A stretch of DNA of 64,000 nucleotides from an uncultured Enterorhabdus sp. Its GTDB lineage: Bacteria; Actinomycetota; Coriobacteriia; Coriobacteriales; Eggerthellaceae. Shown here one piece after another: positions 55,350-64,000 of this stretch. Made by a program: the position numbers and the translations under genes. The DNA lies in assembly GCA_947649205.1 (NCBI GenBank), contig CANSQM010000002.1, forward strand, positions 62,001 to 126,000, written 5' to 3'. Within the stretch, counting starts at the first letter, position 1; every line of letters begins with the position of its first letter. The notes below the pieces were generated by a model. It made no database searches, had not been told where the DNA came from, and worked only from the letters and a program-made list of their open reading frames with translations.

Positions 55350-55850
55350 ATGAACGCCATCTTCAAACGGAGCAGCGTGCGGCAATTCACCGACGAACCC
55401 GTGGCCATTGACGACATCGAGCGGCTTATGCGCGCCGCCATGGCCGCCCCTTCGGCGGGCAACCAGCAACCCTGGGAGTTCTATCTCGCCCGCGACGAGA
55501 CCACCCGCATGGCCCTGGCCGCCACGAGCCCCTATGCCGCACCCGCGAAGCTCGCTCCCTGCGTCATCGCCGCTTGTACGCGCACCGACGGCCTGCGCTT
55601 CGCCCCCTGCGCGCCTCTCGACATGAGCGCCGCCGTGGAGAACATCCTGCTGGAAGCGGCCAATATTGGTCTAGGCGCGGTCTGGCTCGGCGTGGCCCCC
55701 GACCGCGACCGCATGGCCGCCGTAGCCGTGGCCCTGGGCAGCCCCCGGGGCGCGGAGCCTTTCGCCCTCGTCGCCGTGGGACACCCCACCCATCGCCCGG
55801 AGCCCAAAGGCCCTAGCCGCTACGACGAGACCCGCGTCCACTGGATTTAG
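55350..55850 (+). CDS. Nitroreductase-family flavoprotein
   Basis: The protein has 166 residues. RSSVRQFTDEPVAIDDIERL and AAPSAGNQQPWEFYL are the FMN-binding opening of the family, and NIGLGAVWLGVAPD the later signature. It is of the short type. ATG 55350 has GATCGAGG upstream. The last 24 bases of the gene plus one recur exactly at 59273-59297, downstream of the flavoprotein/LuxR module. Natural substrate unknown. Confidence 0.9.
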   Translation: MNAIFKRSSVRQFTDEPVAIDDIERLMRAAMAAPSAGNQQPWEFYLARDETTRMALAATSPYAAPAKLAPCVIAACTRTDGLRFAPCAPLDMSAAVENILLEAANIGLGAVWLGVAPDRDRMAAVAVALGSPRGAEPFALVAVGHPTHRPEPKGPSRYDETRVHWI

Positions 55851-55851
55851 G
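55827..55851 (+). repeat. 25-bp direct repeat, copy 1 (3' end of the nitroreductase gene)
   Basis: Exact match to 59273-59297. It begins GAGACCCGCGTCC and ends GGATTTAGG, including the nitroreductase stop codon. Confidence 0.97.
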
Positions 55852-55898
55852 GAAGGACGCCCCCGGGGAGGAAGAGAGCGTCCTTCACGACCGCCGGT

Positions 55899-57542
55899 CT
55901 ACGCCCAGTCTTCGAGCGTAGCCGCATCTTTCGCCGCAATATACCCGAACACCTTGGTAGCGCCGATGGAGCCGCCGGCTCCAGGGTACACGCGGCCGGG
56001 AGCGCCGATGGCGGCGGCGTTGCTCGTCGCGTACAAGCGCGGCACGATGTCACCGAGCGTGCTCAGCACTTGGGCCTTCTCATTGACCTTGATGCCGCCA
56101 TGGGTGCCGTTGTAGAACTGCGTGCACTTCACCGCGTAGTAGGGGCCCTCTCCGAGCGGCGCGATGCCCATGCGGCCGTACTCGGTGTCGACGCCACCGT
56201 TCGCAGCATCGCTGTTCCAGCGATCGAAGGCCACCTGCAGATTGCGCCCATCGATACCGGAATTCTCGGCAAGCTCGGCGATGGTGTCACCCCGCGTCAG
56301 CCAACTCGGCAGAGGATCGAGCGTGTCGAATTGGGATGCCGCCGCTCCAGCCGCATCGAAGATAGCGAAGCTGTAGGGCAGGTACCGGTGCTGGAAATCG
56401 CCGTGGGCGTCCAGGCCCGCCCACGCATCCATAGACGAGTAGGTTCCCGGCTCCGCATAGAACCGCTGCCCCATACGGCTCACGACGAAATAGGTAGCGT
56501 CGAAGCCAATGCGGCGCCCCTGGAAATACGTGTCATGGAAATCGCCGGCCGAGGCATTGATGGGCAGCGGCACCGAACCGCTCTCGATTTCGTCATAGGC
56601 GTAGATCTCGACGGGACAGGCCCACCCTTGGGTAACCATGCCGCAATCGGCACCCACCGCCTGGGCCATCCTGAAGCCATCGCCCGTGCAGGTGTCGTTT
56701 TGGAAGGTGTAGGGCGTCGTATGGGGAAGGTACTGTTTGCACAGCTCCCGGTCCCAATCGAAACTGCCCGTGCCAATAATGACGGCCTTGCGTGCCTTAA
56801 TGGCAATGTCCGCCGCCCCATCGTTGGCTATGACACCTAGTACTTCCTGACGCCCGTCCTCCATGGGCCGAGCGACCAGCCGCACCGCCGGGGTCCCCGT
56901 AAGCAGCGTGCCGCCCAGAGCCTCGAAGGCCTCTATCTCGGGTACCGTGAAGTTGCCACCCGTCGACTTGGTGGGATCGTCGGCGTTGGGCACATTGAGG
57001 CTGCGCATGTTCGACGAGGCGCCGGGCCAATCAGGCTGCAAGTCCTTACGCTCGGCCACCTGCCAATTCGCCCCCGTCTTCTCAATGAGGAAGTCGATCA
57101 TCTCGGCACCGTTGTCCAGATAGGCGTCGATCATGGCCTCCGTGACGTAGTCGTCGACGTTACAGCGCATCATGTATTCCTTCGCAGCCGCTCTGTCGTC
57201 ATCGACCAAGGACGAGCAGCAGATATAGCATTTGCCTCCGGAAAATGCCGTGGTGCCACCTGCCATCGGCGCCTTCTCCAGCACGATAGTCTCAAGGCCA
57301 TCGGCGGCTGCCTTCACGGCAGCCGAGAGCACCGTGCCGCTTCCGAGGATCACCACGTCGGCTTCCCGATCCCATGCCTCAGGCACGCCGGCCACCATCG
57401 GGGTGCCCGTCCCGCTCAGTCCATCGGAGGATCCGGAATCCGTCGCCGAGCATCCGGCAAGCCCGAGGACCCCTAAAGATGCGACGCCCAAGGCAGTCGC
57501 CCCCAGAAAACCCCGTCGATCCATGTTGCATCCGCTCTTCAT
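55899..57542 (-). CDS. Tat-exported FAD-dependent reductase (fumarate-reductase flavoprotein-like)
   Basis: The protein has 547 residues. A twin-arginine/lipobox signal (DRRGFLGATALGV then LGLAGCS) predicts an exported, lipid-anchored enzyme. FAD binding is at DVVILGSGTVLSAAVKAAAD and LEKAPMAGGTTAFSGG, with the C-terminal GGIKVNEKAQVL and YPGAGGSIGATKVFGYIAAK. It belongs to the FAD_binding_2 group with fumarate and urocanate reductases. Many related gut proteins reduce dietary or drug alkenes; the substrate is unknown. It is divergent from a membrane LuxR regulator. Confidence 0.9.
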   Translation of the reverse strand: MKSGCNMDRRGFLGATALGVASLGVLGLAGCSATDSGSSDGLSGTGTPMVAGVPEAWDREADVVILGSGTVLSAAVKAAADGLETIVLEKAPMAGGTTAFSGGKCYICCSSLVDDDRAAAKEYMMRCNVDDYVTEAMIDAYLDNGAEMIDFLIEKTGANWQVAERKDLQPDWPGASSNMRSLNVPNADDPTKSTGGNFTVPEIEAFEALGGTLLTGTPAVRLVARPMEDGRQEVLGVIANDGAADIAIKARKAVIIGTGSFDWDRELCKQYLPHTTPYTFQNDTCTGDGFRMAQAVGADCGMVTQGWACPVEIYAYDEIESGSVPLPINASAGDFHDTYFQGRRIGFDATYFVVSRMGQRFYAEPGTYSSMDAWAGLDAHGDFQHRYLPYSFAIFDAAGAAASQFDTLDPLPSWLTRGDTIAELAENSGIDGRNLQVAFDRWNSDAANGGVDTEYGRMGIAPLGEGPYYAVKCTQFYNGTHGGIKVNEKAQVLSTLGDIVPRLYATSNAAAIGAPGRVYPGAGGSIGATKVFGYIAAKDAATLEDWA

Positions 57543-57791
57543 ATTCCTCTCCTTCTCACAACGATCTCACTGGTCGCGCCCTCAACGTTGCTGCGATCTG
57601 CCATGGGCGTCCGTAGAGCCGAGAGACATCCAGGGCCATCCATGGCCACCCTCGAAGCACCGAGAGCGCGATATGTATAATAGGAAGAGCGGCACGGAAT
57701 CGGCATCGTCCGAAATGGCGGTAACTCCATTTTGACGAGCCATTTCGATAATTTGCACCATTATGGTGGAGAACATGGGAGGGAATGCACG
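57543..57791. promoter_or_regulatory. Divergent control region of the flavoprotein/LuxR pair
   Basis: It contains TATAAT at 57676-57681 on the plus strand, a perfect inverted repeat CGAAATGGC (57711-57719) and GCCATTTCG (57739-57747), and a CACCAT-T-ATGGTG palindrome at 57757-57769. The inverted repeat is a candidate LuxR-type operator in the regulator's leader. Confidence 0.55.
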
Positions 57792-59273
57792 ATGGCCCGG
57801 GAAGTCACCCTACGGCAGCTGCTGGGAGGCGTACTGCGAAAGCAACGAAAAGCGCTCATTGCATCTGCCTGTTATGGCGTTTGGCTGTTTTCTATCCTCT
57901 TCAACAACATGTTCTTCGAGGGCGGCTCCGTCTTGATCGCTATCAGCGCCTATGGATGGGGAATCGTCATCAGCCTCGCTCTGCTCGGAGTCGCGCAGCT
58001 TGTATCATCCCGCTCTCAAAAACCGTTGTCGCCGAAGGCCCTGGTCATTGCATCTCTTGCCACGGCCCTCGGTTTCTGCGCCGTCGAGGCCGCTTGCTTC
58101 GCGCATCTGATTGATTCTGGCCTGGGAGCGGCACTGGCCATCATCGCTGCCGCGACAAGCCTCACTGCGGGAATGGCCGCTGCCTTCGCGCTTCTCGCTC
58201 CCTTATCCCTTGAAGAGCGCCTTGGCATGCTCATCCTCGGCCTGACCGCGGCCGGCCTGCTTTTTCTCGGAACACTCCTCGCGCCTTTCCGGGTCTTTCG
58301 ACTTGTCCTGATCGCCACCATCCTCATCGTCGGCCTCGGGGCCAGCGCAACAGAGAGCGGATACGACTCCCGAAACCGTCAAGAGGACTACCGCTTTGAC
58401 GCCCGTTCGCGAAGGGGCCTCATCCTCCTGCTCGCCGGCGGAGGCTTCCTCTGCTCCTACGAGCTGAACACAATGCAAAAGACCACGCATTTCGTGCAAG
58501 ACATATTCGGTCAAGCTGCAATCGGGGGCACCGCCGCGGCCTCGCTCTTGGCCGTGACCCTGCTCATCGTGCTGCTCTGCCTCATCTTGCGCGAGCTCAG
58601 ACGACCGCAACGCGCCATTGCGGCCATCGCCTTCGCCCTCATCCTGATGGCCATCTATTACTGTCTCCCCATTATGGAGAATCAGACTTTTCCCATTTCG
58701 TTCATCCTCATTCTTGCGCTGGGCAGCTCTTTTCTCGTCGGCGCCCTTCTCCTTTTCCTCGAAGGCCGACGAAGAAAAGATTGGCTCGTCGAAAAATCGC
58801 TCTCCCCGATAGGGGCCTGGGGCATCGTCCAGGCAGGTGCCCTCGGAGGCGCTACGCTCGCCTACTGGATCATGGAGAGTTTCAGCGCCGGGTCCCCAGT
58901 CGGCAAAATACTCTCTTTTCTGCCCTCCCTGACCATCTTCGCCATCCTCGGATGCTTTCTGTTCTATTGGAAGGACTTGCGGTCGCTGACCCAAGAGGCG
59001 CCCGACCTCGCATCACCGCCCCTACGAGATCTCGATACGTCCCGCATGGAAGATCGCTGTCAGTTTTTCTCCCAACAGTTCAAACTTACCCGGCGCGAGA
59101 GCGAGGTATTGCGGCTCGTCTCACAGGGACGGAATATTCCCGGCATAGCCGAAGCGCTCACGGTGTCCCAGGCCACGGCGAAGTCGCACCTGCTCCACAT
59201 CTACAAGAAGGCATCTGTCTCCTCGCGCCAAGAGCTCATCGATCTCCTCTACGCCAACGAGGGCGACCGATAG
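57792..59273 (+). CDS. Polytopic membrane LuxR-family regulator
   Basis: The protein has 493 residues. About twelve hydrophobic helices (residues 25-400) precede a cytoplasmic LuxR domain: FKLTRRESEVLRLVSQGRN, IPGIAEALTVSQATAKSHLL. This MFS-like-sensor plus LuxR architecture is characteristic of Eggerthellaceae and is usually next to Tat flavoproteins or molybdoenzymes that it controls. ATG 57792 has GGGAGGG upstream; a longer TTG start at 57732 has none. The stop abuts the 25-bp direct repeat. Confidence 0.92.
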   Translation: MAREVTLRQLLGGVLRKQRKALIASACYGVWLFSILFNNMFFEGGSVLIAISAYGWGIVISLALLGVAQLVSSRSQKPLSPKALVIASLATALGFCAVEAACFAHLIDSGLGAALAIIAAATSLTAGMAAAFALLAPLSLEERLGMLILGLTAAGLLFLGTLLAPFRVFRLVLIATILIVGLGASATESGYDSRNRQEDYRFDARSRRGLILLLAGGGFLCSYELNTMQKTTHFVQDIFGQAAIGGTAAASLLAVTLLIVLLCLILRELRRPQRAIAAIAFALILMAIYYCLPIMENQTFPISFILILALGSSFLVGALLLFLEGRRRKDWLVEKSLSPIGAWGIVQAGALGGATLAYWIMESFSAGSPVGKILSFLPSLTIFAILGCFLFYWKDLRSLTQEAPDLASPPLRDLDTSRMEDRCQFFSQQFKLTRRESEVLRLVSQGRNIPGIAEALTVSQATAKSHLLHIYKKASVSSRQELIDLLYANEGDR

Positions 59274-59297
59274 AGACCCGCGTCCACTGGATTTAGG
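59273..59297 (+). repeat. 25-bp direct repeat, copy 2
   Basis: Exact copy of 55827-55851. It starts on the last base of the LuxR stop codon and ends just before the stop of the convergent DUF2974 gene. Confidence 0.97.
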
Positions 59298-59298
59298 A

Positions 59299-60756
59299 CT
59301 ATTTCTTACTTGCGCGGCGGGCGTTGTTGCGGGCGGCGGTGACGTCGCTGAAGGCGCGGGTGAGACCGCGCAGGGCGTTGAGCATGGTGGTGCGGTCGGC
59401 CATGGGAGCCCGCATGACGCCGTCCCGCAGAATGGCCCACTCCCGTCCGCCGGCGAATAGCTGGGCCGCATCGGTGATGCCCGCGGCCTTCAAGGCGCTG
59501 AACAGGGCGTTCACCATGCGCTCGCGATCTTCCCCGTCCATGGAGGCAAGCCATGCCGCCAGCGCCTCGGCCCGACGCTCCGTGCGCTCGGGCAGCGCGC
59601 CTACCGTGGCGAAGTCAACGCCGCCCTCGGCCACAACCCAGCGGTACACCGTGTGCTGCTCGAAGCCCCGCCCTGTGGCCCGCACCACCTCCGTGGGCAT
59701 CAGGGACTCCATGAGAATGCCCACCATGGAATCTTCCGGCACCTGCTTGGTCATGCGGCCCGCCAACGGCTCGTAGTCGGCCGCCGTGAAGGTGCCGGGC
59801 ATGAACCCGGGGCCGTCGTGGTTGTACAGGCGGGCAATGCGCTCCTGCACCGCCGGCGATGCCTTCAGCGCCGCATATTCAGCCAGGTTGCCGCCCTTGG
59901 AATGGCCGCCCACGATGAGCCGTTCGGGCAACCGGCGGTCGGCGGCCACGGCCTCCAGATAGCGCACGGCCAAATCCTGGGCCGGCACCGGCACCATGTA
60001 GGCCATGTTGAAATCCTCGCGCCACCCAGTGAGCGTCGTGTCGGTGCCTCGGTACCCCACGTAGGTGAACTGCCCCGGGCACACGAAGGTCGTAGCGGCG
60101 AACTGCATGTCGAGGGCCTCATCGAAGGCGGCCTCGTGGTCGTAGATGAGCAGCTCGCGAAAGCGGGGGCTTGCGGCCATCCAAAACAGCTGCTGGACCA
60201 TCGAGGTCGCGTGCATGCCCGAGAACATCGTGGGGAACAGCTCGGCCCACAGCAGATCGGTGAAGCGAATGGGCTTCGTGGGAGCTCCGGCATCTTGGGC
60301 ATCCTCGGCCCGATCCAACGTTTCGGCCTTCGTGGCGCCCGGGATGGCCGCAACGCCATCGCCGGCCGCAGCCGTCTGGGTCGCCGCCCGCACCAAGCCG
60401 CCAGCCCCGACGCTCGCTGCAGCCGCCGCCTCGTTGGCCGCCGCAGCACCACCCGCCGCGCCTCCGGCAGTCGCCCCAGCTCCATCGCCGGTCGCGGCGC
60501 TGCCGGCCCCACCGCGCTCTCGCGGCCCCCGCGGCCCGTGGCCCCGGTGGCGCAAGCGCTCAAGCAGCGCCGTCAATCGATGGCGACCCCGTGGCGCGGC
60601 TCCATCCTCTTCCGGCGCCGGCGCCAGCATGCGGGGCATCACCCCCTCGCCCCGGGCCATGCAGAACTGGGCGAGCAGCGCCGAATCCACCGCATTGAAA
60701 GGCTCCTCGGCAAAGGAGGCCCGTTGGGTTTCCAAATATGTGAGCACATCGTTCAT
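59299..60756 (-). CDS. DUF2974 (Mbeg1-like) alpha/beta-hydrolase
   Basis: The protein has 485 residues. An Ala/Gly-rich low-complexity region at about 80-150 separates the N-terminus from a hydrolase domain with YVGYRGTDTTLTGWREDF and the nucleophile elbow VGGHSKGGNLAEYAA; GPGFMPG follows. These match the DUF2974/Mbeg1 lipase-like family. No signal peptide, so probably cytoplasmic. ATG 60754-60756 (NDVLTYLETQ) was chosen over a longer frame because family members begin there. Confidence 0.85.
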   Translation of the reverse strand: MNDVLTYLETQRASFAEEPFNAVDSALLAQFCMARGEGVMPRMLAPAPEEDGAAPRGRHRLTALLERLRHRGHGPRGPRERGGAGSAATGDGAGATAGGAAGGAAAANEAAAAASVGAGGLVRAATQTAAAGDGVAAIPGATKAETLDRAEDAQDAGAPTKPIRFTDLLWAELFPTMFSGMHATSMVQQLFWMAASPRFRELLIYDHEAAFDEALDMQFAATTFVCPGQFTYVGYRGTDTTLTGWREDFNMAYMVPVPAQDLAVRYLEAVAADRRLPERLIVGGHSKGGNLAEYAALKASPAVQERIARLYNHDGPGFMPGTFTAADYEPLAGRMTKQVPEDSMVGILMESLMPTEVVRATGRGFEQHTVYRWVVAEGGVDFATVGALPERTERRAEALAAWLASMDGEDRERMVNALFSALKAAGITDAAQLFAGGREWAILRDGVMRAPMADRTTMLNALRGLTRAFSDVTAARNNARRASKK

Positions 60757-62511: not shown

Positions 62512-62595
62512 GCCCGGGTGGTGGAACGGCAGACACGACGGTCTCAAAAACCGTTGCCGCAAGGTGTGCGGGTTCAAATCCCGCCCCGGGCACCA
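62512..62595 (+). tRNA. tRNA-Leu (anticodon CAA)
   Basis: Acceptor arms GCCCGGG (62512-62518) and CCCGGGC (62585-62591), anticodon loop CTCAAAA giving anticodon CAA, an extended variable arm and TTCAAATC T-loop; discriminator A and an encoded CCA end. A TATACT -10 box lies at 62490-62495. Confidence 0.96.
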
Positions 62596-62636: not shown

Positions 62637-63193
62637 GAGAGTGTTGGGAGTGGGCCGGTTGGCAGAGTGTTTTGCCGTCGTTGCTACTCCGTGCGACCAC
62701 AGGAAAACCCGTCCAGTACCAGCAACTCAAAAGATGCCGGCACCAGCAACCCAAGAGACGCCTCCGAACGTCGGCAAAGGCCCGTGGCTCGTCCGTGCTT
62801 CCCTCTTGCCAGTTTTCGTGCAACAAACTCCGCGAAATAGACTCCGGAACCTTCCCCTCTCTCGACTCGCTGCGCTCTGCCCTGAGATTACCAGGGAAAA
62901 TGTCTTTTAGCTGGCGCCAAACACCCTGATCGACCAATTCTCGCTCCACAAACATCTATTTCGCGGAGTTTGTTGCACGAAAACACGATTATCAAAAACA
63001 CCACGCATCGTTTACTTCCCGTGCAGCCCCAGTACCCCGGAGCCGCCTTCTTTCGAGCGCTCCGTGCGCCCCGGCGCAGCACCGCTCGCCGCTCGACTCC
63101 GGCACCAAAAAAACGCCGCCGCGACAGCGACACCGCCAAAGCAGGCCCATCGCACGCAGCAACCCCGCAACAACTTGCGGCAGAGGGAGCGTG
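62634..63193. other. Non-coding stretch between tRNA-Leu and the right-end gene
   Basis: 560 bp without a supported gene on either strand. It holds the 29-bp inverted-repeat element (62812-62984). Short frames here lack ribosome sites and family similarity. Confidence 0.6.
62812..62984. mobile_element. 173-bp element bounded by 29-bp perfect inverted repeats
   Basis: The ends 62812-62840 and 62956-62984 are exact reverse complements (GTTTTCGTGCAACAAACTCC inward from the left end, continuing nine more bases). The 115-bp interior has no gene. No target duplication was recognised. It looks like a MITE or a pair of recombination sites, about 220 bp downstream of the tRNA. Confidence 0.7.
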
Positions 63194-64000
63194 TCAATCA
63201 CCGAGCGGAAAATGCTCACGATGAAACTTTCGAACCTGCTGCCTCAGCTTCATGTGCACTTCTATTTGACCCGGACCCCAACCTCGGAAACGCTTCCCCA
63301 CTTTTTCGGATACCTTGGCCATAATCTCAGAGAACTCATACACGCTGTCAAACTGGGCCGCGGTCACCGTCACCATCTCGACGCCTTCTGCAAGCAATGC
63401 GTCCCGGCGACGAGAATCGCGGGCGCGCGCGACGGCTCCCCCATGGGATGAGCGGCCGTCGTACTCAACCGCCACACTGCATTCCCACCAGCACAAGTCG
63501 CCCACAACGTATTTCTGCCGCGCAATGCGACGACCCTTCTCACCCAGACCAAACGCTTCGTTTAAAGAGCCCGCGGGCAGCCCTAAGCCGCCGCGCCGTC
63601 GCGAGGTCAGGGCTGTTATGGCGACCTCGGTCTCCATAACCGAAGCCGACTTGCGCCGAACCTGGGCCGCCGCCGAACGAGCTAACTTTACAGCCCGGAT
63701 GTCGGAAAGCTGTTCGAGGAAGGCCAGTAGTCGCTGCGGGGTCGTAAGCGGGCGCCGCACCAGAAAGCCACCTTGTCCGGGAATCGGGTAGCTGCCACAC
63801 AACTCGTATCCCAAAGCAAGAAGTTCTCCGTAAGTCAGGCGCGTGGCCATTTGCGCGAAAACCAGCTCCGGCGAAGAACTCCAGACCCCCGGCGCGATTT
63901 CGAGAAACGCCTTACGCGGCAAGTTTCGGTCGCACTGATGCCGCTTCACCGAGGACGAGGAACGCACACCGGGCCTGCGTCCCACCAGCACCTCGACCAG
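63194..64000 (-). CDS. PD-(D/E)XK nuclease-like (DUF559/Vsr-type) protein, 5' end beyond the window
   Basis: The readable part is about 268 residues and stays open to the window edge. The C-terminal domain contains VVGDLCWWECSVAVEYDGRS and RRRDALLAEGVEMVTVTAAQF, the Asp..Glu-Tyr-Asp-Gly and late arrangement of very-short-patch-repair-like endonuclease folds. The N-terminal 150 residues have a helical part of unknown role (GELLALGYELCGSYPIPG). Similar proteins in Coriobacteriia are usually annotated hypothetical. A GTG start at 63989-63991 is possible. Confidence 0.6.
   Translation of the reverse strand: MVEVLVGRRPGVRSSSSVKRHQCDRNLPRKAFLEIAPGVWSSSPELVFAQMATRLTYGELLALGYELCGSYPIPGQGGFLVRRPLTTPQRLLAFLEQLSDIRAVKLARSAAAQVRRKSASVMETEVAITALTSRRRGGLGLPAGSLNEAFGLGEKGRRIARQKYVVGDLCWWECSVAVEYDGRSSHGGAVARARDSRRRDALLAEGVEMVTVTAAQFDSVYEFSEIMAKVSEKVGKRFRGWGPGQIEVHMKLRQQVRKFHREHFPLGD

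Follow-up and report, generated by a model that had tools for sequence, protein, structure and literature searches.

The 3' end of a nitroreductase-family gene in the source genome is followed by a two-gene unit of 3421 bp, which encodes an exported flavoprotein and a divergent membrane LuxR-type regulator and is bounded by exact direct repeats of 25 bp. This arrangement is probably the product of a lineage-specific insertion at the nitroreductase 3' end, accompanied by a target-derived duplication of 25 bp. Relatives have the empty arrangement, the two repeat copies are specific to the recipient, and the locus has neither a recombinase nor inverted ends, nor a dyad in the repeat. Unless a contig is named, all coordinates are those of the window, i.e., the whole stretch of 64,000 nucleotides that was analysed.

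The repeat, GAGACCCGCGTCCACTGGATTTAGG, is located at 55827–55851 and 59273–59297, and its copies are identical at 25 of 25 positions, as a previous reading of this DNA made without database searches (the sequence-only reading) had pointed out. The two copies are the only matches to this 25-mer in the whole 2.74-Mb draft genome, even at 3 mismatches. A matching 25-mer was obtained in none of 100 shuffles of the window, and about 1% of 1007 ORF-bounded intervals of the source genome, taken as a control, have an exact direct repeat of at least 18 bp across their flanks. The nitroreductase-family gene, the target of the insertion (55350–55850, + strand; Pfam PF00881, 2.4e-24), starts with ATG at 55350, terminates with TAG at 55848–55850, and is intact. 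The left copy (+ strand) consists of the final 24 bases of this gene and one G and is therefore the natural 3' end of the gene, as the same reading had it. The right copy (+ strand), which had been regarded as lacking gene context, in fact completes one stop codon and ends next to another. Its initial G, at 59273, doubles as the third letter of the TAG that ends the LuxR gene (59271–59273), and its final base is 1 bp short of the stop codon (59299–59301, − strand) of the convergent neighbour, an Mbeg1-like gene (PF11187, DUF2974; 59299–60756, − strand; 1.8e-65). No dyad was found in the 25-mer by fold analysis. A role of the 25-mer as a functional hairpin or terminator was ruled out, as it has no fold (z 0.22).

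The inserted unit (55852–59272) has G+C content of about 61%, compared with about 67% in the flanks. It contains only two genes in its 3421 bp, the flavoprotein gene and that of its divergent regulator, as had been described before. The flavoprotein gene (55899–57542, − strand) codes for an FAD_binding_2 protein (PF00890, 2.9e-40) with a predicted export signal. The N-terminus of the protein, MDRRGFLGATALGVASLGVLGLAGC, has an RR motif and a lipobox-like LAGC, which is of the Tat/lipoprotein type, and the likely start is MDRRGF at about 57524. The LuxR-type regulator gene (57792–59273, + strand; PF00196, 5.7e-12) codes for a protein with a C-terminal GerE domain (432–485) and about nine N-terminal hydrophobic segments, as counted in a simple and crude hydropathy scan. 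The LuxR stop codon forms one edge of the unit. At the other edge, behind the flavoprotein stop codon, there is a hairpin, GAAGGACGC...GCGTCCTTC (55852–55886), located at the left inner edge of the insert just downstream of that stop. It has a fold energy of −23.2 kcal/mol (z −1.9), is without a T run, and was not called in a consensus terminator scan; it is a possible terminator. According to the ORF list and Pfam, no recombinase, relaxase, transposase, integrase, or Cas1 gene is present in the unit, and neither of its two genes is a recombinase, which agrees with the previous observation on this point.

In all eight sampled congeners, none of which is conspecific with the source, the nitroreductase and Mbeg1-like genes are adjacent and convergent and the module is absent from the site. 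The nitroreductase orthologues are 76–96% identical across these genomes. An empty site with the nitroreductase gene next to the DUF2974 gene and with one repeat was what the sequence-only reading had predicted for relatives, and a single gene end was found in eight of eight; because the host genes are adjacent there with a single gene end, the insertion with gene-end duplication is supported. The spacer between the two host genes is 0 to about 290 bp long in the congeners. The stop codons of the two genes overlap in genome G001, so a short ancestral spacer is plausible, and the predicted empty junction would be TAG-GA-CTA, i.e., CACTGGATTTAG-GA-CTATTTCTT with one 25-mer. Genomes G004 and G005, which are the most similar by nitroreductase, have a homologous spacer of 250–290 bp that is absent from the source genome. 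Either the spacer of the ancestor was short, as in G001, or it was lost at the insertion event.

The second copy has its origin, as judged from nucleotide comparison, in the nitroreductase gene of the source lineage itself. When 138 genomes of the family were searched with the 25-mer at up to 3 mismatches, the hits were confined to the orthologous gene ends in three congeners (G002, G007, and G001), with 2–3 differences each, and no match with fewer than 2 mismatches was found in these genomes outside the source genome. The right copy is identical to the left copy and differs from the gene end of every sampled congener, which indicates copying from the lineage's own gene. Such recipient-specific copies are what duplication at insertion would give; a unit that arrived together with a gene end from another sampled species would not be expected to have them. 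The proposed search for further cassettes with these 25 bp at their end yielded none, either in the source genome at 3 mismatches or in the family.

By composition and kinship, the unit is most likely foreign to the source genome, since it has no close relatives, its paralogues are remote, and its G+C content and GC3 are lower. The GC3 values are 0.77 and 0.71 for the genes of the unit versus 0.84 for both neighbours. The nearest paralogues in the genome reach 139 bits, versus 1252 bits for the self match. No long DNA match to the module was detected in the 138 family genomes, with 165 bp as the longest, and no LuxR protein match was obtained there at E 1e-60. The best relatives of the flavoprotein among the family genomes are three proteins from two other genera, with 43–44% identity. 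G092 and G090, which account for two of the three, have a divergent LuxR gene adjoining the flavoprotein gene, with other genes beside; the pair is thus a real unit, which occurs in another genus as well. The search for a donor gave nothing in the wider genome contig collection, and plasmids gave matches of only about 30% identity.

In the mechanism proposed here, a foreign self-contained unit, consisting of a Tat-exported flavin reductase and a divergent membrane LuxR, would have been inserted once, in the source lineage. The insertion would have duplicated 25 bp of the recipient's gene end, so that both host genes stayed intact. Most likely, a break staggered by about 25 nt took up the foreign DNA and its ends were then filled in, or an equivalent short back-copy (template switch) produced the duplicate. 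For this step alone, i.e., that the copy arose at insertion by a staggered break or back-copy, we infer about an even chance. Target-duplicating capture accounts for the data without a recombinase. No Ku gene was found in the genus, and classical end joining was rejected for this reason; the mechanism would have to rely on alternative end joining or on replication. ComEC is present in nine of nine genomes of the genus, but this says little because most control genomes carry it too.

A possible but rather unlikely explanation is integration of att-like or Campbell type, in which circular or tandem DNA with a 25-bp piece of the nitroreductase end was inserted in a single crossover through a recombinase acting in trans, RecA, or short-homology recombination. 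The locus resembles integrative elements whose att sites lie at the 3' ends of genes in that the repeat is the 3' end of a gene and the target gene is left intact, and an insertion on contig 30 of the same genome is the mosaic that a single crossover is expected to produce. Unlike att-type integrative elements, however, the unit carries no integrase, recombinase, or relaxase, the 25-mer has no dyad, and there is no second cassette with the same core. The repeats of the other repeat-bounded insertions all have different sequences, and as the 25-mer is identical to no allele but the recipient's, a circle would need a source within the same species. The sequence-only reading had interpreted the locus as a cassette insertion that duplicated its site, as in att-type integration. 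The insertion with gene-end duplication is upheld by the eight congeners, but the att-type part could not be retained, as recombinase, dyad, and a site sequence common to other repeat-bounded insertions are all missing. We do not call the locus att-type because there is no recombinase and no second element with the 25-mer core.

The surveys of gene pairs and of repeats covered 1.98 of the 2.74 Mb of the source genome. Only one of the 16 flavoprotein/LuxR pairs in the 1.98 Mb has a long flanking direct repeat, and the remaining pairs have repeats of at most 15 bp; a rule that reductase/LuxR modules are generally repeat-bounded was rejected on this count. The insertion on contig 30 (2277–8020) is 5.7 kb long and lies between 53-bp exact copies of a gene end that reads as an MFS-CBS gene. 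Its genes are HipA_C, LuxR, and AAA-ATPase/PDDEXK_9, and the empty site is contiguous in G004, the closest relative. The tail of the right copy and the downstream sequence match G004, while the tail of the left copy is a different, non-native version of the gene end. These mosaic tails suggest that the incoming DNA carried a gene end of its own and entered by a crossover. As the sequences stand, single-crossover integration would fit this locus better than a staggered cut, and its origin may differ from that of the flavoprotein/LuxR unit. On contig 2 (27855–29446), a 50-bp terminator-containing repeat (27855/29397) surrounds a DUF4143/AAA_14 gene. The flanks of this site are 0.2–0.5 kb apart in G001, G003, G006, and G008, and the distance is larger in G002, G004, and G007. 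The repeats of all these insertions differ in sequence, which argues against one site-specific enzyme. It appears doubtful that the minimal metabolic cassettes of the genus travel in general as circles or fragments without a recombinase, entering gene 3' ends via short matches to the target gene end, and that this would be a routine but so far undescribed route for the exchange of reductase/sensor pairs and nuclease-ATPase genes. Isolated repeats of at least 24 bp in the source genome are direct in 19 cases versus inverted in 2, but this excess is weak as a genome-wide signal, as the direct set includes four rows of a single CRISPR-like array, repeats internal to coding sequences, and palindromic elements dispersed in the genome. 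Only three direct pairs and one inverted pair of at least 20 bp were counted in 400 kb of G001. On contig 4 (71625–75310), a DUF4143 gene and apparently truncated LuxR and flavoprotein frames are also enclosed by a direct repeat of 25 bp.

Three other explanations have a much lower probability. It is very unlikely that the right copy is what deletions left of a tandemly duplicated nitroreductase region, with the module entering otherwise. Duplication with deletion is able to leave short direct repeats, but two precise deletions would be required here, one of which would have had to stop right at the end of the LuxR gene, at its stop codon, and no nitroreductase sequence upstream of the 25 bp persists beside the right copy. 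Nor does the genome contain an extra nitroreductase fragment, as the only other match to the gene is a paralogue of 31% identity. Transposition with a target duplication of 25 bp, made by a trans-acting transposase or a Cas1-like integrase, would be in line with the size of the duplication and its location at a gene end, but it is hardly probable either: the inner ends of the unit, GAAGGACGCCCC and TATCGGTCGCCC, have no inverted repeat, and the unit has no transposase or Cas1 gene. None of the other repeat-bounded insertions has the same inner ends. An assembly artefact, with contigs joined via a common 25-mer in a draft genome of 70 contigs, or mere chance is likewise very unlikely, as both copies lie within one contig of 140 kb, the repeats of similar insertions vary in length (20–53 bp) and do not correspond to a single k-mer size, and the same 25-mer is not expected by chance on both sides of an unrelated insert.

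Insertion with target-derived duplication, the preferred reading, has a counterpart in another bacterium. Casposons target gene ends with long target duplications and are similar to the locus in these two features, but here there is no Cas1 and there are no terminal inverted repeats. Insertion with long target duplication was reportedly recognised by Nobusato et al. in 2000 (Gene 259:99) between Helicobacter pylori 26695 and J99. The H. pylori insertions of this type mainly involve restriction-modification genes (PMC1643837, PMC3031569). As outlined in these sources, the H. pylori cases have in common with the locus presence or absence at one place in comparison with relatives, a direct target duplication of tens of bp, lower G+C content, and the lack of a transposase, an integrase, and inverted repeats at the termini. 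The cargo in H. pylori is, by the same accounts, mostly restriction-modification genes, which is an association and not a defining feature, whereas here it is FAD_binding_2 and LuxR genes; also, strains were compared there and species within one genus here. The best reading is that the locus has the structural features of insertion with long target duplication; this mode of insertion is already known, and the cargo is unusual.

The flavoprotein was related in a homology search to flavocytochrome c, urocanate reductase, and 3-ketosteroid dehydrogenases, and it has an FAD_binding_2 domain together with an export signal, as do reductases similar to flavocytochrome c and urocanate reductase. LuxR regulators with 10–12 TM segments and neighbouring reductases are known in Coriobacteriia (Dong et al. 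2022, PMC9734109); genomes of multiple genera of this group each encode over 10 of these regulators, and membrane LuxR regulators of this type in Eggerthella lenta activate neighbouring enzymes upon sensing of the substrate. The regulator of the unit corresponds to those described there in its N-terminal membrane domain, C-terminal GerE/LuxR DNA-binding domain, and adjacent flavin-dependent enzyme. Direct repeats did not appear in the passages of PMC9734109 consulted, and only one of 16 such pairs has them here. By analogy with the characterised Eggerthellaceae pairs, the divergent membrane LuxR probably senses the substrate of the flavoprotein and activates the flavoprotein gene, and the function of the unit may be substrate-induced anaerobic reduction of some compound.

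Dozens of reductase/LuxR pairs in gut Eggerthellaceae determine which drugs, steroids, and polyphenols get reduced. One such pair keeps an intact insertion scar here, and neither neighbour was harmed. The unit is minimal, with an enzyme, a shared promoter region, and a sensor, and the locus represents a clean and testable case of the addition of one metabolic ability. It broadens the range of insertion with long target duplication, from restriction systems to metabolic genes.

Several other features were noted in the source genome. Three paralogous ORFs are located in the window at 62818–62978 and 63194–64000 (the gene runs to contig 2:126333), on contig 6 (40568–42283), and on contig 7 (39113–40623). 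They are 34–43% identical and have weak matches to MTES_1575/DUF559-type nucleases, below the cut-off. Paired inverted motifs of 20–25 bp, about 110–143 bp apart, are present on both sides of these nuclease-like genes. Each paralogue has its own motif, and 8, 6, and 7 pairs of the respective motifs are dispersed elsewhere in the 1.98 Mb. This organisation resembles that of REPIN-RAYT systems, except that the gene here is nuclease-like. Comparable pairs, of one motif, are present in G001 too, though not next to such a gene. A fourth nuclease-like paralogue on contig 1 (126449–127977) is likewise flanked by a direct repeat of 20 bp; this is part of a longer imperfect repeat and has no inverted partner. 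A CRISPR-like array with a 36-bp repeat and a period of about 66 bp was recognised on contig 21 (1359–2350). A tRNA-Leu (CAA) gene is located in the window at 62512–62595, between a transporter gene and the first palindromic element.
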